A stretch of 35,114 nucleotides of DNA from a bacterium. GTDB lineage: Bacteria; Sysuimicrobiota; Sysuimicrobiia; Sysuimicrobiales; Segetimicrobiaceae. Position 1 is the first letter of the stretch, and each line of letters begins with the position of its first letter. The notes beneath the pieces were generated by a model that saw only the letters and a list, made by a program, of their open reading frames with translations, did no database searches and was not told the origin of the DNA. The stretch is from positions 1-35,114 of the forward strand of contig DATGFS010000020.1 in NCBI GenBank assembly GCA_035308905.1. Reading direction: 5' to 3'. Shown one piece after another: positions 2,873 through 33,757 of the stretch. Made by a program: the position numbers and the translations under genes.

Positions 2873-2918
2873 TCCCTATTGACCGTCCCGATCCGAGGAA
2901 CGCCGGCGGTTGCCGGAG

Positions 2919-2960
2919 ACATATAACTATCTTGACATCTATACATATAAATGCTACGGT
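2919..2960 (+). promoter_or_regulatory. ssb promoter with phased ACAT half-sites
   Basis: A consensus -35 TTGACA (2932-2937) is followed after 17 bases by TACGGT (2955-2960), 31 bases before the ssb start. ACAT occurs at 2919, 2935 and 2943, exactly 16 and 8 bases apart, with CTAT at the missing step (2927). The same array and the same TTGACATCTA-N-ACAT core occur at 25121-25148, upstream of the relaxation/coupling genes. The promoter call is strong. A shared regulator binding both sites is inference. Confidence 0.65.
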
Positions 2961-2991: not shown

Positions 2992-3423
2992 ATGCTCAAC
3001 CGCATCGAACTGATCGGCCGCCTGACCAGGGATCCGGAACTCCGGTACGTGGCCAACGGACACGCGATGGCGCAGTTCACGGTCGCGGTCAACCGCGACT
3101 TCAAGAACGCCGCGGGCGAGCGCGAGGCCGACTTCATCCGCTGCGTCACTTGGCGCAAGCTGGCCGAACAGGTCGGCCAGTACTGCGGCAAAGGCCGTCT
3201 CGTCGCGGTGGAGGGGCGGCTGCAGACGCGCAATTACGAGCAGCCCGACGGCTCGCGACGTACCCTGACCGAGGTCATCGGCGACCGGGTCTGGTTCCTC
3301 GACAGCCGCCGCGCCGAGGGCGACGGCAACGGCCAGCAGACGGAAGGCGACGCGCAGGAATCGCAGCCGGAACTGATCGGCGATCCAGAGGAGGGGGCCC
3401 TCGAGACCGTCGTGGACACGTAG
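2992..3423 (+). CDS. ssb: Single-stranded DNA-binding protein, short form without acidic tip
   Basis: A 143-residue SSB that coats single-stranded DNA during replication, repair or recombination. The OB fold spans about residues 1-105: it starts MLNRIELIGRLTRDPELRY, has FTVAVNRDFKN, then FIRCVTWRKLAEQ, GRLVAVEGRLQTR and finally VIGDRVWFLD. The C-terminal tail (106-143) is Gln/Glu-rich but ends ALETVVDT and has no DDDIPF-like tip, the usual docking site for replication and repair partners. The ATG at 2992 is preceded by GGGAGG at good spacing; an in-frame ATG at 2932 lies inside the promoter and is rejected. There are no ribosomal protein or DnaB neighbours, so this may be an accessory copy rather than the replicative SSB. 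Confidence 0.92.
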   Translation: MLNRIELIGRLTRDPELRYVANGHAMAQFTVAVNRDFKNAAGEREADFIRCVTWRKLAEQVGQYCGKGRLVAVEGRLQTRNYEQPDGSRRTLTEVIGDRVWFLDSRRAEGDGNGQQTEGDAQESQPELIGDPEEGALETVVDT

Positions 3424-3435
3424 CACTTTTGGCCC

Positions 3436-3510
3436 GTGGCGGGGCCGCAGCCGGCGGAACAAGTTCGGGCCGCCGCCGGCGAACGGCAGGCGCGGCCCCG
3501 CCGCCGCCAC
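3436..3510. other. Large nested GC-rich hairpin downstream of ssb
   Basis: The region between ssb and the ATPase gene (3424-3680) holds no convincing gene. GTGGC (3436-3440) pairs with GCCAC (3506-3510), GGGGCCGC (3441-3448) with GCGGCCCC (3492-3499), and inside these GCCGGCGG (3450-3457) pairs with CCGCCGGC (3473-3480). It may act as an ssb terminator or a stable 3' structure. No T-run follows. Confidence 0.45.
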
Positions 3511-24990: not shown

Positions 24991-25120
24991 CAGGAGTGAC
25001 GTAGCCTTCCGTATCGAGGCGTGCGGCGGTGCGGGCGCGCGTGTTCGGCGGAGCATCGCTGTCGCCGGAGTTCCTAGCACGAGAACGGTGAGTACGGACT
25101 GCGTTTTTGACTGCAATCGA

Positions 25121-25162
25121 ACATATTAATGTATTGACATCTAAACATCATACTATTATAGT
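25121..25162 (+). promoter_or_regulatory. Near-consensus promoter with four ACAT/ATGT half-sites in 8-bp steps
   Basis: TTGACA (25134-25139) and TATAGT (25157-25162) are 17 bases apart, among the closest to consensus in the window. ACAT at 25121, its inverse ATGT at 25129, and ACAT at 25137 and 25145 are spaced exactly 8 bases. The array and the TTGACATCTA core match those upstream of ssb at 2919-2946. A predicted start near 25169 leaves a leader of about 430 bases before the first gene. Confidence 0.7.
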
Positions 25163-25601
25163 TGTGGTAATCGAATAGCGACGACTGCCGCGGGCCACGG
25201 TGCGGCGGCAGCGTAGGGGCCGGGCGACCCTCGAGTGGAACGCGGAGCAACGGGTGAGCGAGTGGTGGACTGGCCACGCCTATCAACGCGCTGATGGTTT
25301 TCGGACGGGCTCGGGGTTTTGAACGAGCCAGTAGGTCGAGAATGACGGTTTAGTCAGTAAGGTGCGCGGCAAAAGAACTCTGTGCGCACGAGTGTTCTAG
25401 GGTCGTAACGGCAATCGTTTGAACACGCGAGTGCGCGCGTAGACGAGGCACCCGTTGAGGTGGACGCTTCACCCCCCTCAGAAGCGCCGGGCCTGACCAG
25501 CCCCCTCGTCGACGCGCGTCCCCGCGTGTCCGCGTTTTCCTGATCCGTCCCGCACCTCGGCTCCCGCTCTCCAAATCTGCTTCGACAAGGAGATGATCGC
25601 C
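25163..25601 (+). other. Long structured leader without a gene
   Basis: No convincing protein gene lies between 24991 and 25601. A long-range inverted repeat pairs 25434-25448 with 25504-25518 (14 of 15 bases), and inside it CGCTTC (25465-25470) pairs with GAAGCG (25481-25486) around a 10-base loop. Another possible stem is GTGTTC/GAACAC near 25392-25426. This region may be a regulatory 5' leader or encode a separate small RNA. No known riboswitch class is recognised. Confidence 0.4.
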
Positions 25602-26495
25602 ATGCGCTCATGGGAGCGCGCGGCGGCGGCGCTTGCGTGCCTCACGCCGCGCGACCGTGCGTTGCTTCGCGTGCTGCACGACCTCCGTTACCTGACGTGC
25701 GAGCAGGCGCACCGCGCGTGCTATCCCGGTCTTGCGCCGCGCAGCGTCCGCGCCCGTCTCAGCAACCTGCGGCATCGCGGGCTGATCGCCCCGCTCCGCC
25801 GCGGCGTGTTTGCCGACCGGCGCATGTTCTGGGGCCTCGGCCCGCTCGGCCGCACCGCAGCGGCCGCCCTGGAAGCCGTGGACGGCGGCGGCGGGAAAGG
25901 GGACGGCTCCGCCGCGCCATCGCGGTCGATCGTGATGGCGGCCCTGCAGCTCGAGCACCTCAGTGGGACAAACGATCTGTTCTGCGATCTGTGCGAGACC
26001 GCTCGGACGGTCCGCCTGCCGCCCTGGCGCTGGCTGGCCGGTTTCCGATCGGCCGTGGATCTCGGGCAAACGCGCCTGGTGCCGGACGCGGCGGTGCTGA
26101 TCGCCGGCCCGGACGACGGATGGTGGACATACTATGTCGAGCGCGACCGCGGGACGATGCCGCTCCAGGCGATGCGCGACAAACTGGAGCGGTACGCCCT
26201 ACTGTTCAGGATGGCCGCCGCGCAGTCCGGCGACCCCGCATGGCAGGCGCGCGCCGACGCATGGCTGCTGTTCTCCTGCGACGATCTCCGCCGGGCGGAG
26301 CGCCTGGCCGCCCTCGCGGCCGGCGCCGGTCTCGAGCGGGTGTGGGCCGGCCTGGCCAATGCGTGCGCGGCCGGTCTCGCGGGAGCACTCTGTGACGTAT
26401 CCCCGCCGCGACAATGTCCGGCGCTGCCTTCGTGGGCGCGCGGCGCGCTCGCGGTGTCCGATACCAGCCAATCAACCGAGGAGGAGCCGGTATGA
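25602..26495 (+). CDS. Replication-relaxation family winged-helix protein
   Basis: A 297-residue protein whose N-terminal half matches the replication-relaxation family (PF13814): LTPRDRALLRVLHDLRYLT, a helix-turn-helix region with RSVRARLSNLRHRGLI, and the wing FADRRMFWGLGPLGRTA. The centre has a HLSGTNDLFCDLC segment and a VPDAAVLI strand, then YYVERDRGTMPLQAMRDKLE, as in the family's C-terminal domain. Such proteins occur on plasmids and conjugative elements near mobilisation genes. ATG 25602 is preferred because AAGGAG lies 9 bases upstream; the ATG at 25593 overlaps that site. It overlaps the coupling-protein gene by 4 bases (ATGA). Confidence 0.78.
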   Translation: MRSWERAAAALACLTPRDRALLRVLHDLRYLTCEQAHRACYPGLAPRSVRARLSNLRHRGLIAPLRRGVFADRRMFWGLGPLGRTAAAALEAVDGGGGKGDGSAAPSRSIVMAALQLEHLSGTNDLFCDLCETARTVRLPPWRWLAGFRSAVDLGQTRLVPDAAVLIAGPDDGWWTYYVERDRGTMPLQAMRDKLERYALLFRMAAAQSGDPAWQARADAWLLFSCDDLRRAERLAALAAGAGLERVWAGLANACAAGLAGALCDVSPPRQCPALPSWARGALAVSDTSQSTEEEPV

Positions 26496-28144
26496 ACCGT
26501 ATATCGATCACCGTCCGTCTGATGCTTGCCGGATTCGCCCTGGCCGTCCTGTCGCCGCTGTTCCCCGGCCTTCCGGCCGTCGGCGTGATCCTCGCGTGCG
26601 CCGCCTGGGCCTGCCTGATCGGCGCGTACGCCGCTGCGCGGTGCGGCCAGCGCCGGACCGTCGCCCCCCCGGCCGGCGCCGTGTGGGCGGAATGGCCCGA
26701 CGTCTCAGACCTGACGCGGCCCGGCGCGCTGCTCCTCGGCCTGTGGCCGGGGTCGCGCGCGCCAATGTACGTCGATGACGAGCAGGCCTCCGCGCACGCG
26801 CTCGTCCTCGGGCCGTCCGGGACCGGCAAGAGCGCCGGCGTCATCGCGCCGAACGTGCTGCTGCGGGATCCGTCGAGTGAAAGCGTCGTCGTGCTTGACG
26901 TAAAGACCGGCCCGCGCTCGCTGTGGAACACCACCGCCGGCCGCTACGGCGGCCGCGCGCACCTGTTCTGTCCGTTGCTGGACGGCTCGATCCGGTACAA
27001 TCCGCTGCATCGGGCCGGGACGATCGGCGACGCGCAGCGCACGGCGGCGCTCCTGGTCCACAACACGACCCCGCGCGATCTCTCCGGCGACGCACAGGTC
27101 TACGCCTCCGCCGCCGCCGACCTGGCCGCGCTCCTCTTTCTTCACGCACAGGGCGCCCGCGCCGCCGGCGGCCACACGGTCGGATCTGTGTACCGGGTGC
27201 TGCTCGGCGGCGCGGGGATGGTTCGGGCCACGCTCGCGGGAAGCCCGATCGCCGAAGTGCGGGAGCGGGCGGGGGTGTTCGCGGCGCGCGAGCGCCGCGT
27301 GCGGGACGCGGCGGTGACCGGACTGCTGCAGCGCCTCGCGGCATGGGCCGACCCCGCGATCGATGACGCGACCTCCGGCCATTGGGACCTTGGGCAGCTG
27401 GGCCGAACGCCGTCCGCGCTCTACATTCTCCTGCCCGAGCCCGAGGCCGCGCGGCTGCAGCCGCTCGTGGCGTGGCTCGTCGCGGATCTGCTGGACACTT
27501 TGATCGACCAGGCCGATCGCGGCGAGCAGCGGTGTCCCGTCCGCGTGTATCTCGATGAATTCCGCCGATTCGGATATCTCGCCGGACTGAGCGACCGGCT
27601 CCCGACGCTCCGCGAGCGCGGCGTGAGCGTCGTGCTCGGGGCGCAGGTGCTGAGTCAGATCGAGGACGTGTACGGCGCGCGGGACGCGCGCTCGCTCGTC
27701 GCCAACACCGAAACGAAGCTCATCTTCCGGGCGGGCGACATCGAGACCGCCCGAACCGTGAGCGCGTGGCTCGGGCAGACGACGGTGCCGGTGATCTCAC
27801 GGACGATCGCGCCCGGAGGCGCCCGCGCCACGGTGCAACCCTACGTGCGGCCGCTCGCGATGCCCGACGACATCCTGCGGCTTCCCGACAACACCGTTCT
27901 CGCGCTGGCCGGCGCCCGCCGTCCGTTCGTGCTCCGTCAGGCACGCTGCTTCGATGCAACTGTCCGCGCGCTGCTTGGCTTCACGCGACAAGAGCCGCCG
28001 TTTGCCCTGCGGCCACGAACGAGTCGTGCGCCGGCGGCGGCACCGGCGGCCGCGGCCGCCGCCCCCGCGGCGCCCCAACCCGCACCGGCTCCGCGCCGGC
28101 GGCCGGCGCCCCGACCGCACGGCGGCGTGCGCGTCTCTCCTTAG
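26492..28144 (+). CDS. VirD4/TraG-type coupling protein (AAA+ DNA-pumping ATPase)
   Basis: A 550-residue membrane ATPase resembling type IV secretion coupling proteins. Two N-terminal membrane helices lie at about residues 8-48. Walker A is GPSGTGKS (107-114), followed by VVVLDVKTGPRS, and Walker B is VYLDEFRRFG with D355/E356. The TraM-recognition-type section LPTLRERGVSVVLGAQVLSQ and the ETKLIFRAG segment follow. The last about 50 residues are Ala/Pro/Arg-rich and probably disordered. In conjugation this protein hands the relaxase-DNA complex to the secretion channel, but no relaxase, VirB4 or channel gene is nearby. It converges on the DyP gene with 5 bases between stops. Confidence 0.85.
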   Translation: MNRISITVRLMLAGFALAVLSPLFPGLPAVGVILACAAWACLIGAYAAARCGQRRTVAPPAGAVWAEWPDVSDLTRPGALLLGLWPGSRAPMYVDDEQASAHALVLGPSGTGKSAGVIAPNVLLRDPSSESVVVLDVKTGPRSLWNTTAGRYGGRAHLFCPLLDGSIRYNPLHRAGTIGDAQRTAALLVHNTTPRDLSGDAQVYASAAADLAALLFLHAQGARAAGGHTVGSVYRVLLGGAGMVRATLAGSPIAEVRERAGVFAARERRVRDAAVTGLLQRLAAWADPAIDDATSGHWDLGQLGRTPSALYILLPEPEAARLQPLVAWLVADLLDTLIDQADRGEQRCPVRVYLDEFRRFGYLAGLSDRLPTLRERGVSVVLGAQVLSQIEDVYGARDARSLVANTETKLIFRAGDIETARTVSAWLGQTTVPVISRTIAPGGARATVQPYVRPLAMPDDILRLPDNTVLALAGARRPFVLRQARCFDATVRALLGFTRQEPPFALRPRTSRAPAAAPAAAAAAPAAPQPAPAPRRRPAPRPHGGVRVSP

Positions 28145-28149
28145 ATGGT

Positions 28150-29049
28150 TCAGTCCGCCTGCTCGGTGACGAATCCGCGGATTGCTTCCACCGAGGGGAT
28201 GAAATAGTAGGCGCCGGTCAGCGCCTTTGTGTAATTGGTCAGCGCATCCCGAACGCCGTCGGTGACCCCGGCCATACTGTCCAGCATCCCGGCGAGGCGC
28301 TGTTGGTCGGCGCTGAAGCCGACGAACACCGTGCCGTGGTTCGTGACCGTGCCGTACGGCATGTTCCGGCGGAAGATATGGCCGAACGTGTCCTGATCGG
28401 TCCGGGCGACGTGAGAGTCGGAGGGCTTCGGGTCCAGCTCGACGCTGTCGGGTTTGCGCCGGCCGATGACGCGCTCCTGCGCAGCAACATCGAGCGACTC
28501 CCAACGGGCGGCATCGTGGCCCCACTTTTGAAGCAGCAGGACGGTGCCGCCCGCGCCCGGTGTTCCCTTCGGCACCGCGAGCACCTCGGGGGCCTCCAGC
28601 AGGCTTGGGTTTTCGGTCCCGTCGATAAAGCCCGTGAGGTCGTGGTCGTAGCGATAGGGCCAGCTCGATGTCTCCTCGGCGACCGACGCGAGACCGGCGA
28701 GCGCGGCGATCGCCTGGCGCGATTCGTCGAACACGACGTCGTAGGCGCTGCCCGAGAGCCAGAGCACCGCGTCGTGCTGCGTGGCCGGCATCACGTACCC
28801 GTCCGCTCCGCGGATCTCGCGGTTGAAGCCGGTGACGCCGGGCGGTATTCCACCGGGCACCGCGCCGCGCCACAGTTCGGGTCGGAATCCCGAAACCAGA
28901 TTGATCCCGCCGATCGTGGTGCGGGGTTCCCGGAGGTTGGCCATCGTGGTGATCAGGTCCGAGGGGTTCTTCCCGCGCCGCAGATCGAATTCGAGATAGG
29001 CGTGCGAGGTGGTGCCGAGGGCAAAGATTCCACTCTGGGGCGTGCCCAT
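28150..29049 (-). CDS. Dyp-type (YfeX-like) heme peroxidase
   Basis: A 299-residue dye-decolorising-type peroxidase, the usual length for the YfeX group. The diagnostic motif GFIDGTENP lies at 140-148 with catalytic D143; the predicted heme ligand is H213 (DSHVARTD) and a distal Arg is in IFRRNMPYG (227-228). It uses peroxide to oxidise porphyrins or other substrates. The ATG at 29049 follows GGAGAGGA; an upstream in-frame start at 29256 would overlap the divergent gene and is rejected. No signal peptide and no encapsulin-type tail is apparent. It is divergent from the FAD oxidoreductase gene, with 157 bases between. Confidence 0.93.
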   Translation of the reverse strand: MGTPQSGIFALGTTSHAYLEFDLRRGKNPSDLITTMANLREPRTTIGGINLVSGFRPELWRGAVPGGIPPGVTGFNREIRGADGYVMPATQHDAVLWLSGSAYDVVFDESRQAIAALAGLASVAEETSSWPYRYDHDLTGFIDGTENPSLLEAPEVLAVPKGTPGAGGTVLLLQKWGHDAARWESLDVAAQERVIGRRKPDSVELDPKPSDSHVARTDQDTFGHIFRRNMPYGTVTNHGTVFVGFSADQQRLAGMLDSMAGVTDGVRDALTNYTKALTGAYYFIPSVEAIRGFVTEQAD

Positions 29050-29206
29050 CGCGTCCTCTCCGTACCCACCGGTGGAGCCGTCGGACTGGAGTTCCGAACC
29101 CGACGCCCCAACCCCTTCGCGGCGAAGCGTGCGACCTGCGGGGCGCGGCGAAGCGCCGCGGCCGGATGAGTAGGGGCGCCAGCCGGCCGCGCAGAAGGCG
29201 AAACGA

Positions 29207-30328
29207 ATGAACGGCAGCGCAGACGTGGTCATTATCGGCGGCGGGATCGTGGGCATCTCGGCCGCCTACTTCCTGAGCGAGGCCGGCGTGCGCGACATCG
29301 TCGTCCTCGAACGGGCGACGGTGGGCGCCGGCGCCACCGGCCGGGCGGCCGGTGTCATGCTGGTGCAGAGCGGTTCGGACGCCGATCTCAGCTTTCAGTT
29401 GGAGGCCGTCGCCGTCCACCGGCGCTTCCACGAAGAACTCGGGACCGACCTGCGCGCGACGGGATCGCTGCTGCTCTGGCGCTCGGCCGGCGACGCGCAG
29501 GCCGCGCGAGAGCGGCTCGGGTTTCACGCGGACCGCGGAATCATCATGGAAGCCCTCGGTCCCGACGACCTTCGCCGCGAGTTTCCGTATCTTGCGGCCG
29601 ACGACGTGGCCCTCGGCACGTACACCGGTGTCGATCAATGGGCGACGCCGCTTGCCACGATGCAGCGGCTCGCCGACGCCGTCCGCGGCCGCGGCGTCGT
29701 CGTCCGGGAAGGCACGCGTGTCGTGGACGTCGAGACCGACGGCAACCGGGTGCAGCGGGTCGTGACGAATGACGGCGGCGTGGCCGCGGGGAGCGTGATC
29801 AACGCCGCCGGGGCCTGGGCCCGCGATCTCGGCGAACTGAACGGCGTACGCGTGGCGGTGTCGCCGCGGAAGCGCCAGGCATTCATCCTGGAGCCGCCGC
29901 CCGGGGTCCCATCCGACTCGGCCTTTATAATGGAAGAAGCGGACGATTTCTACTGCAAGACGCGGGCGGAAGGGCTCATTATGGTCTGCGGGCAGCCGCC
30001 GGGCGAGACGCTCGACGACGTGGTGGAGTGGGGCTACCTCGACGACGCCTTGTCCCGCACGGAGCGGCGGATTCCCGCGGCCCGCTCCATGCCGATCGTC
30101 GGCGCCTGGGCCGGGATCCGGCCGGTCTCCCCCGACGGCAAGCCGTCGTTGGGGCCGGCTCCCGGGCTCGAAGGCTACTATGTCGCCGGAGGCTTCGGCG
30201 GCCAGGGCTTCACCCAGGGTCCGCTCGGCGGCCGCCTCGTGGCGGAATTGATCACGACGGGCCGGCCGAGCCTCGACCTGGCGCCCTTCCGGCCGGACCG
30301 CGCCGTCCGTTCGCCGCGGCCGCGCTGA
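29207..30328 (+). CDS. FAD-dependent amine/amino-acid oxidase-like oxidoreductase (DAO family)
   Basis: A 373-residue flavoprotein of the DAO family (glycine oxidase, sarcosine oxidase and dimethylglycine dehydrogenase relatives). The dinucleotide-binding start is DVVIIGGGIVGISAAYFL with GGGIVG at residues 11-16 and the acidic VLERA at the end of the second strand. Later marks are GRAAGVMLVQ, VINAAGAWA and the C-terminal GGFGGQGFTQGPLGGRLVAEL for FAD contact. There is no covalent-FAD His-Cys motif at the N-terminus. It would remove hydrogen from an amine, with oxygen or another carrier as acceptor. It begins a forward run (oxidoreductase, TatD, M48, ComB). The substrate is unknown. Confidence 0.9.
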   Translation: MNGSADVVIIGGGIVGISAAYFLSEAGVRDIVVLERATVGAGATGRAAGVMLVQSGSDADLSFQLEAVAVHRRFHEELGTDLRATGSLLLWRSAGDAQAARERLGFHADRGIIMEALGPDDLRREFPYLAADDVALGTYTGVDQWATPLATMQRLADAVRGRGVVVREGTRVVDVETDGNRVQRVVTNDGGVAAGSVINAAGAWARDLGELNGVRVAVSPRKRQAFILEPPPGVPSDSAFIMEEADDFYCKTRAEGLIMVCGQPPGETLDDVVEWGYLDDALSRTERRIPAARSMPIVGAWAGIRPVSPDGKPSLGPAPGLEGYYVAGGFGGQGFTQGPLGGRLVAELITTGRPSLDLAPFRPDRAVRSPRPR

Positions 30329-30348
30329 CGCGCGGCGCGCGAATCCGC

Positions 30349-31161
30349 ATGTGGATCGACGCGCATCTGCATCTCGACGCGGCTGAATTTGAGCCCGATC
30401 GTGACGAGGTCGTGGCGCGCGCCGCGGCGGCCGGAGTCGGGTTGATGGTCTCCGCCGCGACGACCGTCGCCGGCGCCGAACGCGTCCTCGCCCTGACCCG
30501 CCGTTTTCCCGCCGTCCGGGCCGCCGTGGGCGTGCATCCCGAGCATGCCGGTGAGGTGGATGCGGCCGCCATCAACGCGCTCGAGCGCCTCGTCTCCGAT
30601 CGGGCGGTCGTCGCGATCGGCGAGACTGGTCTCGATTACGTGCGCGGCCTCGCCGCCAAGGCGGCGCAGATCGACGCGTTTCGCGCGCAGGTCCGGCTGG
30701 CGCGCCGGCTCGACCTGCCCGTTGTGGTGCACGATCGCGAGGCGCACGACGATGTCGAGCGGATACTACGAGAGGAAGGCGTGTCCAAGGTTGTGCTGCA
30801 CTGTTTTTCGGGCCCGCCGGAGATGGCCGTGCGCTGCGCCGCGTCGGGATGGATGATCTCGCTCGCGGGGCCGGTGACTTTCCGAAACGCGGGGAGCCTT
30901 CGGGATGTGGCGCGGGCGCTGCCGGATGACCGGCTGCTGGTCGAGACGGACGCGCCGTACCTCAGCCCGGTGCCGGTGCGGGGGCGCCGGTGTGAGCCGG
31001 CCTTCGTCATCCACACGGCGCGCGCCGTCGCGGGTCTGCGCGGCGTCTCGCTGGACGCGCTCGAAGCCGTGGTGGAGCGGAACGCGCGCCGCGCCTTCGG
31101 CGTTTCGGAAGAGAGGTCTCCGTCGGGGAGCGACGAACGGTCGGCGGAGAAGGAGCGGTGA
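30349..31161 (+). CDS. tatD: TatD-family metal-dependent hydrolase
   Basis: A 270-residue TIM-barrel hydrolase. Metal ligands are visible: H6 and H8 (DAHLHLD), E92 (IGETGLDY), H128 (VVVHDREAHDD), H151 (VLHCFSG) and D201 (ETDAPYL). TatD proteins are 3' exonucleases or DNases in DNA repair and turnover. It is of normal length, with a charged C-terminal tail. Start 30349 is the first codon giving the expected MWIDAHLH beginning; no strong ribosome site precedes it, and the gene lies 20 bases after the oxidoreductase. The stop overlaps the M48 gene's GTG (GTGA), so the two are coupled. Confidence 0.93.
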   Translation: MWIDAHLHLDAAEFEPDRDEVVARAAAAGVGLMVSAATTVAGAERVLALTRRFPAVRAAVGVHPEHAGEVDAAAINALERLVSDRAVVAIGETGLDYVRGLAAKAAQIDAFRAQVRLARRLDLPVVVHDREAHDDVERILREEGVSKVVLHCFSGPPEMAVRCAASGWMISLAGPVTFRNAGSLRDVARALPDDRLLVETDAPYLSPVPVRGRRCEPAFVIHTARAVAGLRGVSLDALEAVVERNARRAFGVSEERSPSGSDERSAEKER

Positions 31162-32321
31162 GAAGCGGGATGATGAGACCGTGGCACAGCCGCCGCAGGG
31201 TCGCGCTGCTGCTTGCGATCGCGACCGCGGTGGTGCTGGTCGGGATGCCGGGCGAGCAGTCCTCCGTCTCCGCATTGACGTTTCCGTCGACCGCGGATGA
31301 GGTCAAGTTCGGCGCCCAGACCGCCAAGCAGATCGAATCGCAGTTCCGCCTCATCAACGATCCGGCGCAGGTGGCCCGTCTACAGCGGGTGGGCGACGCG
31401 ATCGCGCGCGTCGTGGAACGCCAGGACCTCCCATACCACTTCAAGATTGTCGCGGTGCCCGGCATCAACGCACTCTCGATCCCCGGCGGGTGGGTGTACG
31501 TGACCGAGGGCATGATGCGGTTCGTGCGCTCCGACGACGAACTCGCCGCCGTGTTGGCGCACGAGATGACGCACGTCAACCACCGGCACTACTACATTCA
31601 GGCGGACCGCGAGCGGCATCTGACACCCGCGCTGCTGGTCGCGTTGGCCCTGTCCATACTCGCGCATTCGCCGGCGCCGCTGCTCGGCGCCCAGGTCTCC
31701 CTGATGGCCGTCATGAACAATTACCAGCGCGACCTGGAGCACGAAGCCGACCTCAACGGGGTGACCTACCTCACGAAGACCGGCTACTCGCCGGTGGCGA
31801 TGCTGACCCTGATGGAGCACCTCGCGCAGGAAAGCCGGTTCACCGCGCACCCCGATCCGACGGGCCTCGAGGACCACCCGCTGCCGCAGGAGCGGGTCGA
31901 CTATATCCGGGCCGACCTGCAGAGCCGCCACGTCCCGATCGTGCGCCGTCCGGTGGAGGGTTACCTTCGCATCGCGCTCGAGCCGGCGCAGCCCGCCCCC
32001 GGCGCGCCGGTGACTATTCGCGTCGACGGCCAGCCGATCGTGACGCTGGGAGCGGCCGTCAACGGCCAGGCCGCGGCCGACCGCGCCCTGGCCCTCGCCG
32101 TCCGGCTCAACACGTTCTTCAACCGGGACCCCGAGCCGTTCGACGTCCGGGCGGTCGCGGCCGGCGGCACGTGGAGCGTCGTCGGGGGAGAGATGCCGCT
32201 GTTCGAGGTGACCCCGCAGGACGCCGCGTTCGCGCAGACGACAGCCGCGGCGCTCGCGGAGGAAATCCACGCGAGTCTCACGCGCGTGATCACCGCCGCG
32301 CCCTACGTCCGGAAGTTCTGA
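31158..32321 (+). CDS. M48-family metalloprotease
   Basis: A 387-residue zinc metallopeptidase with an N-terminal export or anchor segment (about 13-30) and an M48 domain. The zinc motif is HEMTH (135-139), and the third ligand is E194 in EHEAD. VPGINALSIPGGWVYVTEGM is the conserved strand before the active site. M48 enzymes (HtpX/BepA/LoiP type) take part in envelope protein quality control. A C-terminal extension of about 130 residues carries a domain without a named match here. The start is GTG 31158 with AGGAG just upstream; ATG 31170 or 31173 are possible and would not change the domain. It is followed directly by comB. Confidence 0.92.
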   Translation: MRSGMMRPWHSRRRVALLLAIATAVVLVGMPGEQSSVSALTFPSTADEVKFGAQTAKQIESQFRLINDPAQVARLQRVGDAIARVVERQDLPYHFKIVAVPGINALSIPGGWVYVTEGMMRFVRSDDELAAVLAHEMTHVNHRHYYIQADRERHLTPALLVALALSILAHSPAPLLGAQVSLMAVMNNYQRDLEHEADLNGVTYLTKTGYSPVAMLTLMEHLAQESRFTAHPDPTGLEDHPLPQERVDYIRADLQSRHVPIVRRPVEGYLRIALEPAQPAPGAPVTIRVDGQPIVTLGAAVNGQAAADRALALAVRLNTFFNRDPEPFDVRAVAAGGTWSVVGGEMPLFEVTPQDAAFAQTTAAALAEEIHASLTRVITAAPYVRKF

Positions 32322-33119
32322 GTGGAGGTCCACGTCGCGTTCCTGCCGCAGGAGGCAGACGACGTGCGCCGGCGCGTCGCCGTGGTGATCGATGTGCTGC
32401 GGGCGACGACGTCGATCCTCACCCTCCTCGAGCGCGGCTGCGCGGAGGTCGTCGTCGCGCGGAACGTCGCGGCCGCCCGCCGCTATGCCGCGGAGAGCGC
32501 CGGGAGGCGTGTCGCGCCGGTGGTCGAAGCCGGCCGCCGCGGCGGTGATGACGCGCCCGCGGTCTCGACGCCGCCGGTCCGCACGGCCGGAGAAGAGGGC
32601 GGGCTCCCGCCGGAGGGTTTCGAATTCGGCAACAGCCCCGCGGCGTTCGCGCGCGCGGACGTCAGGGGAAGCCGGGTCGTGATCGCGACGACGAACGGTA
32701 CCAAAGCGCTTCACGCCGTGCGCGGCGCGCCGGCCGTGTTCACGGCATGCCTGCGCAACCGGGCGGCCGCCGCGCGCGCGGCCGTCGAGGCCGCGCTCCG
32801 CGGCGGCTTCGATCTCACGGTGGTGTGCGCAGGACGGGAGGGGCGGTTCAGCCTCGACGACGCGTACGCCGCCGGCGGGGTGGTCGACGCGATCGAAGAG
32901 CAGCTTGCGGATCGGGCGCCGCACACCTCGACCGACGCGGTGCTCGCGGCGCGGACGCTCTACCACGCATGGCCCGATCCCGTCGACGTGTTCCGGCAGA
33001 CGGCGGGAGGCCGGAATGTCGCGGCGATCGGACTCGAGGAAGACCTGCGCTACTGCGCGGTGCGGGACTGCTCGGAGCTCGTGCCGTGCGTAGGGAACCG
33101 GCTCACGCTGTTGGAGTGA
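32322..33119 (+). CDS. comB: 2-phosphosulfolactate phosphatase family protein (ComB)
   Basis: A 265-residue ComB-family phosphatase. Marks are VVIDVLRATTSI (about 21-32), LPPEGFEFGNSPAAF, VIATTNGTKAL and VVCAGREGRFSLDDAYAAG. In methanogens ComB removes phosphate from 2-phosphosulfolactate in coenzyme M synthesis; bacterial copies are widespread and their substrate is often uncertain. The GTG immediately follows the M48 stop. Its last 70 bases are shared on the opposite strand with the glycosyltransferase gene. Confidence 0.88.
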   Translation: MEVHVAFLPQEADDVRRRVAVVIDVLRATTSILTLLERGCAEVVVARNVAAARRYAAESAGRRVAPVVEAGRRGGDDAPAVSTPPVRTAGEEGGLPPEGFEFGNSPAAFARADVRGSRVVIATTNGTKALHAVRGAPAVFTACLRNRAAAARAAVEAALRGGFDLTVVCAGREGRFSLDDAYAAGGVVDAIEEQLADRAPHTSTDAVLAARTLYHAWPDPVDVFRQTAGGRNVAAIGLEEDLRYCAVRDCSELVPCVGNRLTLLE

Positions 33120-33757
33120 GCGCCGTCCGGCTTCGCCCGGCCGTTGCGGCCGCTCCACTTGGCGATCTGCCAGGTAGCCTTGAGCTTCCCGGCGTATCCG
33201 CGGAGCAGCCCATGTTTCTCCAGTTTGGACAGGTGCGCGAGGCCGCCGAGCGGTACGGTGCAGCTGCGCAGCCCGGAGTTCTTGACGTGGCGGCTGAGGG
33301 CGGCCTCGACGCCGAAGCCGGTGCTCCCGAGGTCGGGGATCGCGTCGAGCACAGACCGCCGCATGGCCCGCTGGCCGGAGAAATTCGGGAATAACCGTTG
33401 CATCAGGTCCGGTTCAATTTGTCCAACGCTGACCTCCACCGCTCCCCGCAGGACGGGTCGAAGGAGATCCTCCACGTGACGGCTGGTGAGACCGAGCAGA
33501 TCACCGTCGAGCAGCAGGATGACGCGGGCGTCCGTGGCCGCGAGCCCGGCGGCGATCGCACCGCCCTTGCCGAGGTTCTCGATGAGTTCAATGACCCGCG
33601 CGCCATGGGCGCGGGCCGCATGCCCGGTGGCGTCCCGCGATCCGTCGCTGACGACGACCACGTCGTCTACGAGGCCGCTGTGCTTCACGGCCGCCACCAC
33701 GTCGCCGATCGTGCGTTCTTCATTGAAAGCCGGAATGATCGCCGCGACCCGGGGCAT
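33050..33757 (-). CDS. Family 2 glycosyltransferase
   Basis: A 235-residue GT-A glycosyltransferase of family 2 that transfers a sugar from a nucleotide or polyprenyl donor. Marks are AAIIPAFNEERTIGDVVAAV, VVVSDGSRDAT, ENLGKGGAIAAGL and the metal-binding DGDLLG (DxD equivalent). The FSGQRAMRRSVLD and GFGVEAALSRH parts resemble polyprenyl-phosphate-type transferases. There are no membrane helices. GGGAGGG lies just before the ATG at 33757. The last 23 codons overlap the 3' end of comB tail to tail and encode a Ser/Arg-rich tail that may be non-essential. It is divergent from the bactofilin-like gene, with only 30 bases between starts. Confidence 0.85.
   Translation of the reverse strand: MPRVAAIIPAFNEERTIGDVVAAVKHSGLVDDVVVVSDGSRDATGHAARAHGARVIELIENLGKGGAIAAGLAATDARVILLLDGDLLGLTSRHVEDLLRPVLRGAVEVSVGQIEPDLMQRLFPNFSGQRAMRRSVLDAIPDLGSTGFGVEAALSRHVKNSGLRSCTVPLGGLAHLSKLEKHGLLRGYAGKLKATWQIAKWSGRNGRAKPDGAHSNSVSRFPTHGTSSEQSRTAQ

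Follow-up and report, generated by a model that had tools for sequence, protein, structure and literature searches.

What are a coupling ATPase and a relaxation protein doing on a bacterial chromosome, surrounded by ordinary metabolic genes? The question is raised by a two-gene unit in a 35,114-nucleotide stretch of DNA (hereafter, the window), which constitutes the whole of contig C20 in a 4.0-Mb, 97% complete MAG of Ca. Segetimicrobiaceae (Sysuimicrobiota), a family of soil bacteria. A first-pass annotation, made from the letters of the window, had described the unit as standing without any other transfer gene and proposed that it was either a remnant of an integrated element or a domesticated DNA-moving pair with a new role. 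In the present analysis, the pair was followed through 12 Segetimicrobiaceae genomes (the source genome and 11 relatives) and 31 genomes from the other families of the order, all of which are MAGs. The results suggest that a bacterium has turned conjugation machinery into its own means of swapping chromosomal DNA.

The Relaxase and Its Coupling Protein

The two ORFs lie on the plus strand and share a 4-bp ATGA overlap (Table 1), in keeping with the translational coupling first proposed. Position 25602 is favored as the start of the upstream gene because AAGGAGATGATCG immediately precedes it in almost every relative; this start is preceded by AAGGAG, and the alternative ATG at 25593 falls within the conserved ribosome-binding site. 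The 297-residue product matched PF13814 (6.6e-24; 85.5 bits against a cut-off of 25.3), which is classed as the MOBC relaxase family (PMC5357655, PMC12479173). It probably has an N-terminal winged helix and a C-terminal PD-(D/E)XK-like domain. The MOBC family is related to PD-(D/E)XK restriction enzymes, and its member TraX of pAD1 has an N-terminal winged helix and binds a site composed of direct repeats (PMC12857230). Residues D162, E180, D182, and K194 are invariant across the 12 orthologues, in the acidic/lysine active-site pattern of the PD-(D/E)XK type. A structure model of moderate confidence (pLDDT 73.6) had PD-(D/E)XK nucleases and nickases as its nearest matches, with Z values of only 5-7, which lie below the tool's safe level. 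A Foldseek comparison of the model with the PDB returned no match at E <= 0.001, nor did a plasmid search with the protein at E <= 0.01. Judged by its sequence, the winged-helix protein is a MOBC relaxase-family protein and would be expected to nick DNA. The "relaxation protein" of the first-pass annotation is thus real, whereas the accompanying premise that the locus lacks a relaxase was mistaken, as PF13814 is itself a relaxase family.

The downstream gene encodes a coupling ATPase (T4CP) of 550 residues that matched PF02534 far over the cut-off (2.3e-39), together with PF12696 and PF10412, and its assignment to the VirD4/TraG type therefore stands. Hydrophobic stretches near residues 8-52, a possible membrane anchor at the N terminus, were seen in the sequence by eye. 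The Walker A (GPSGTGKSAG) and Walker B (VYLDEF) motifs are indeed intact, as they had appeared to be, and are nearly invariant in the relatives. In a plasmid search with this protein, identity was below 30% among the best matches listed.

TABLE 1. Positions of the features discussed, in window coordinates.
Feature	Position	Strand	Details
SSB promoter with tandem 8-bp repeats	2912-2955	+	TTGACATCTATACATA at 2932-2947
Second single-stranded DNA-binding protein (SSB)	2992-3423	+	PF00436 8e-35; in relatives, its gene adjoins that of the relaxase on the upstream side
21.6-kb insertion between SSB and relaxase promoter	3506-25117		Absent in L032 (same genus)
Relaxase promoter/operator	25118-25160	+	Repeats AACATATT AATGTATT GACATCTA AACATCAT; -35 TTGACA, -10 TATAGT
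Conserved leader hairpin	25165-25245	+	CTGCCGC..GCGGCAG, GGGCGACCC; weak covariation
Cloverleaf	25433-25519	+	Four-way junction, 31 pairs; candidate oriT or RNA switch
MOBC-family relaxase (Replic_Relax)	25602-26495	+	PF13814, 12-orthologue alignment, model and fold comparison, literature
VirD4/TraG-type coupling ATPase (T4CP)	26492-28144	+	PF02534, PF12696, PF10412, alignment
Syntenic downstream flank	29207-33757		FAD oxidase 29207-30328, TatD nuclease 30349-31161, M48 protease 31158-32321, ComB-like phosphatase 32322-33119, glycosyltransferase 33050-33757 (- strand)

Conservation and Vertical Descent

The pair is present once in each of the 12 family genomes, always at one syntenic position. 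The T4CPs of the 11 relatives are 56-77% identical over full matches, and each is accompanied by a single paired PF13814 gene. Among the 31 genomes from the order's other families, no orthologue was found, the matches there being at most 35% identical, and a GTDB scan seeded with just two peptides placed T4CP orthologues exclusively in Segetimicrobiaceae. The downstream flank is the same throughout the family, apart from contig-end losses and a FAD oxidase gene that is missing in some genomes, and in relatives without insertions the relaxase and T4CP genes are all that lies between an SSB gene and this flank. The adjacent genes are ordinary metabolic or housekeeping ones, in line with the metabolic neighborhood described in the annotation. 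A DyP-type peroxidase gene (window 28150-29256, - strand), situated between the T4CP and FAD oxidase genes, was not seen there in most relatives.

Distances calculated for the pair, the flank genes, and the channel genes VirB4 and VirB6 (see below) agree closely (r 0.87-0.93; Mantel, 0/2000), and the trees of these three sets share well-supported groups. In close pairs within genera, dN/dS (Nei-Gojobori) was 0.15-0.20 for the T4CP, 0.19-0.32 for the MOBC protein, and about 0.15 for the SSB. The pair is under purifying selection, including on the ATPase itself, and is vertically inherited on the chromosome. With the pair in 12/12 family genomes at the same place, dN/dS of about 0.15-0.3 among close relatives, and congruent trees, the domestication alternative of the first-pass annotation is supported; its other proposal, the remnant of an integrated element, is not. 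An integrase beside the transfer genes and a variable insertion site are the hallmarks of an ICE or IME, and here the same syntenic site is occupied in 12 genomes.

A Channel Operon at a Second Locus

Further components of a transfer system are encoded on contig C3 of the same genome. An operon there specifies a 442-aa protein, a VirB2 pilin, a membrane protein of VirB3 size, VirB4, a protein of 360 aa, a VirB6-like protein, another protein of 309 aa, and a second VirD4. VirB2 matched PF04956 at 2.4e-10 and VirB4 the TraC type at 4.7e-53, and the VirB6-like protein matched PF04610 at 0.003, which is under the cut-off. VirB8, VirB9, VirB10, and a VirB1 hydrolase were not recognized; the 442-, 360-, and 309-aa products of the operon are conserved proteins without a family match. 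As far as the contigs allow a view, the operon is syntenic in 11/12 genomes, flanked by a helicase gene on one side and by the gene of a divergent AAA protein on the other. The latter (AAA/Lon-like; L031:17600-18971, + strand) shares the promoter region of the operon where the relatives' contigs reach. In two genomes, G005 (L045:4753-9466) and G007 (L046:1700-8855), unrelated metabolic genes (peptidase, ABC transporter, proline dehydrogenase-like) are found between the channel VirD4 and the helicase.

Relaxase, T4CP, VirB4, and channel are therefore all encoded in this genome, the first two in the window and the rest on C3. The claim of a pair without any other transfer gene does not survive, given that a relaxase-family protein is part of the pair, an SSB gene adjoins it in relatives, and a VirB2-VirB3-VirB4-VirB6-VirD4 operon with a matching operator lies on another contig. 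Because a relaxase and a channel operon were the very items that the annotation had named as evidence against an orphan pair, that claim is refuted on its own terms, and the reading of the system as one for DNA exchange gains.

The Region Between the SSB and Relaxase Genes

In relatives, an SSB gene immediately precedes the relaxase gene; another SSB of the source genome is encoded on contig C41. In the window, the two genes lie far apart. The intergenic region of L032 aligned by blastn to both window 3429-3505 and window 25118-25238, indicating that 21.6 kb have been inserted in the window. By eye, the inserted DNA contains genes for a metal P-type ATPase, a two-component system, a branched-chain ABC transporter, and hydantoinase-type enzymes, and GC falls to about 0.58-0.65 across 11.5 to 25.5 kb of the window. 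An insert of about 8 kb with other, unrelated genes occupies the same place in G001, and the gap between SSB and relaxase may therefore be an insertion hot spot. The leader hairpin is common to the relaxase mRNA in the window's genus and the SSB mRNA in other genera, as though the promoter had been relocated together with the leader.

The same gap holds a cloverleaf of 87 bases, in which an outer stem (GACGAGG/CCTCGTC) encloses three inner hairpins. The element folds as DNA at z -5.2. In an alignment of eight sequences, 12 cells, most of them in the outer stem, had changed on both sides of a pair, compared with 5.1 in shuffles (0/500). A covariance model found exactly one strong copy in 10/12 genomes, in each case next to the gene for the SSB or the relaxase, and two of these ten genomes lay outside the training set of the model; G003 and G011 gave no match. 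Searches of Rfam with gathering and E-value thresholds returned no known RNA at this position. The cloverleaf is a candidate for an oriT or an RNA switch. A switch of the latter kind acts on parAB in the gonococcal T4SS (PMC8716806).

A Shared Operator

Tandem 8-bp units of NACATCTA form an operator that stands before the SSB, relaxase, channel operon, and comM-dprA genes. In the window's genus, the relaxase promoter carries the repeats, and SSB promoters carry them too. Across all 4.0 Mb of the genome, the exact core ACATCTNNACAT was found at three places, namely the promoters of the SSB gene, the relaxase gene, and the channel operon. A weight matrix trained without the channel-operon and parAB sites was run over 1.76 Mb of the source genome and yielded five sites of at least 20 bits, located before SSB, relaxase, comM, the channel operon, and parAB. 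The channel-operon site scored 21.5 bits, and column-permuted matrices gave 0.1 site of at least 20 bits per run. The channel-operon motif is weaker in G007 and G008 (12.5 and 14.4 bits). Further matches in relatives pointed to comM; all nine comM promoters examined contain the motif, with dprA following about 2.5 kb further on. On the evidence of these sites, the SSB gene, the relaxase-T4CP unit, the channel operon, and comM-dprA are apparently co-regulated. An SOS/LexA regulon was also considered; the few strong sites rather favor a small dedicated regulon, although the recA and lexA promoters were not located.

Operator-like tandem repeats (27 bits) also lie about 60 bp upstream of the chromosomal parAB genes, near the rnpA/oxaA cluster (L172:13069-13100, G000:C14, - strand). 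An operator site before parAB was found in this genome only.

Absence of ComEC and Natural Losses

ComEC is the usual DNA-uptake channel, and comM encodes a transformation helicase. A ComEC gene (PF03772) is absent from 12/12 family genomes and present in 27/31 other genomes of the order. Within the family, G004 and G006 lack both comM and dprA. G004 also has no second VirD4, its channel operon being absent; in G006 (L050:16400-20000), the channel promoter, the first gene, and the start of VirB2 are gone and, by eye, another element with a primase-polymerase-like gene stands in their place. The operon is kept in the ten other genomes wherever the contigs allow a view. An apparent loss of comM in G002 was attributed to a contig end (dprA lies 41 kb into a contig of 43.3 kb) and was left out of the count. 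Channel and comM-dprA thus appear linked, since they were lost together in 2/2 genomes compared with 0/10. The SSB, relaxase, and T4CP genes are intact in both G004 and G006, and the pair may therefore have a role of its own; for a role that depends on the channel alone, this is the chief obstacle.

A Model for Chromosomal DNA Exchange and Its Alternatives

On balance, we lean toward a domesticated conjugation system, chromosomal and vertically inherited, by which the cell exchanges or donates its own DNA. The system has the three features by which domesticated conjugation is recognized, being chromosomal, vertically inherited, and tied to host recombination genes. In this model, the chromosome would carry an origin of transfer that the MOBC relaxase nicks; the candidate is the cloverleaf with the repeats just upstream of the relaxase gene. 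The co-translated T4CP would then pass the strand, presumably outward, to a VirB2/B3/B4/B6-type channel supplied by the second chromosomal locus. In the recipient, the dedicated SSB, together with ComM and DprA from the same regulon, would shield the single strand that arrives and see to its recombination, and a single regulator binding the tandem NACATCTA repeats might switch on the whole set. Three observations weigh against this model: G004 and G006 retain an intact SSB-MOBC-T4CP set where the channel is absent or broken, the channel operon has its own VirD4, which leaves the need for a second T4CP unexplained, and VirB8, VirB9, VirB10, and VirB1 were not recognized. More tentatively, the whole family could have dropped ComEC-based transformation, such that its native chromosomal gene exchange is a self-encoded conjugation from two loci, with one operator wiring in ssb, comM-dprA, and possibly parAB, and with the relaxase and a cloverleaf oriT as part of the normal chromosome.

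The absence of ComEC also lends itself to an opposite interpretation, in which the channel replaces ComEC as an uptake pore, as in archaeal Ced, and the MOBC nuclease renders incoming or donor DNA single-stranded. The retention and co-regulation of comM, dprA, and the second SSB fit such an import machine, as do VirB4, VirB6, and VirB2, which also make up the core of Ced (PMC9905601). The sequence gives no indication of direction, but Ced operates without a relaxase, and a relaxase with a T4CP normally serves export; we consider import rather unlikely.

Persistence of the pair in G004 and G006, where no intact channel operon is found, would instead suit an integrative mobilizable element that became fixed in the family, is merely tolerated, and hitches on resident conjugative elements. 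CloDF13 (PMC7431656) and streptococcal IMEs with PF13814 (PMC12479173) have just such a mobilization module, in which a MOBC relaxase is accompanied by its own T4CP. The lack of an integrase between the SSB and the flank genes, the one fixed position in 12 genomes, the vertical trees, and the operator shared with the host genes comM-dprA nevertheless make such an element improbable.

The same two genomes could point to repair or defence, with the MOBC protein, T4CP, and SSB processing chromosomal ssDNA or foreign DNA inside the cell and no transfer taking place. The T4CP-like ATPase weakly matched the defence protein mad8 (3e-10), and SSB and ComM act on ssDNA; the mad8 match is nonetheless weaker than the T4CP matches (2.3e-39), and the operator is shared with a pilin-VirB4-VirB6 operon, so that this role seems very doubtful. 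A decaying ICE remnant, to which a single T4CP frameshift in G009, a short T4CP deletion in G010, and the broken channel operon of G006 might testify, is hardly credible and already largely refuted by dN/dS values well below 1, given that the frames are full-length in the other genomes, the motifs are invariant, and the faults in G009 and G010 occur in fragmented draft MAGs.

Comparison With Known Systems

The model of domesticated exchange can be set against four known systems. One is the mobilizable plasmid CloDF13, whose MOBC relaxase (MobC) and dedicated coupling protein (MobB) likewise have no channel genes beside them (PMC7431656, PMC5357655). Unlike in CloDF13, the pair described here is chromosomal, vertically inherited, and preceded by an SSB gene, and it shares its operator with host recombination genes. 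The ssDNA-secreting T4SS of the gonococcal genetic island is also chromosomal, with a relaxase and a T4CP, and the island carries SsbB and ParA/ParB (PMC3334931, PMC8716806), which recall the SSB and the operator site upstream of parAB in the present genome. That system, however, has a MOBH relaxase, resides in one island in part of the strains, and operates beside ordinary transformation, whereas the present one has a MOBC relaxase, is split over two loci, and occurs in all family genomes, none of which has ComEC. In Patescibacteria, a T4SS of conjugative descent is lineage-wide and chromosomal (PMC12102498), but it is mostly without a relaxase and thought to be non-conjugative, while the relaxase is universal in Segetimicrobiaceae.

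Conjugation, competence, and secretion systems go unmentioned in the paper describing the phylum (PMC11604079). With the operator, the cloverleaf, and two genomes that have undergone natural losses, the hypothesis can be tested directly. If it is true, finding "transfer genes" in a MAG is not in itself evidence of a mobile element. Archaeal Ced and Ted offer a precedent for chromosomal conjugation machinery as a cell function, built from VirB4, VirB6, and VirB2 homologues (PMC9905601). Neither system has a relaxase, and both are believed to take DNA up, whereas here a bacterium combines a relaxase with a T4CP. Beltran et al. (2023) stated that, to their knowledge, a conjugative apparatus domesticated for DNA transfer was unreported outside the archaea they studied (PMC9905601). 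A family in which relaxase, coupling protein, channel, and recombination factors are core and apparently co-regulated, and in which ComEC is absent, would be a bacterial case of such domestication and, if the model holds, a bacterial counterpart of archaeal Ced.
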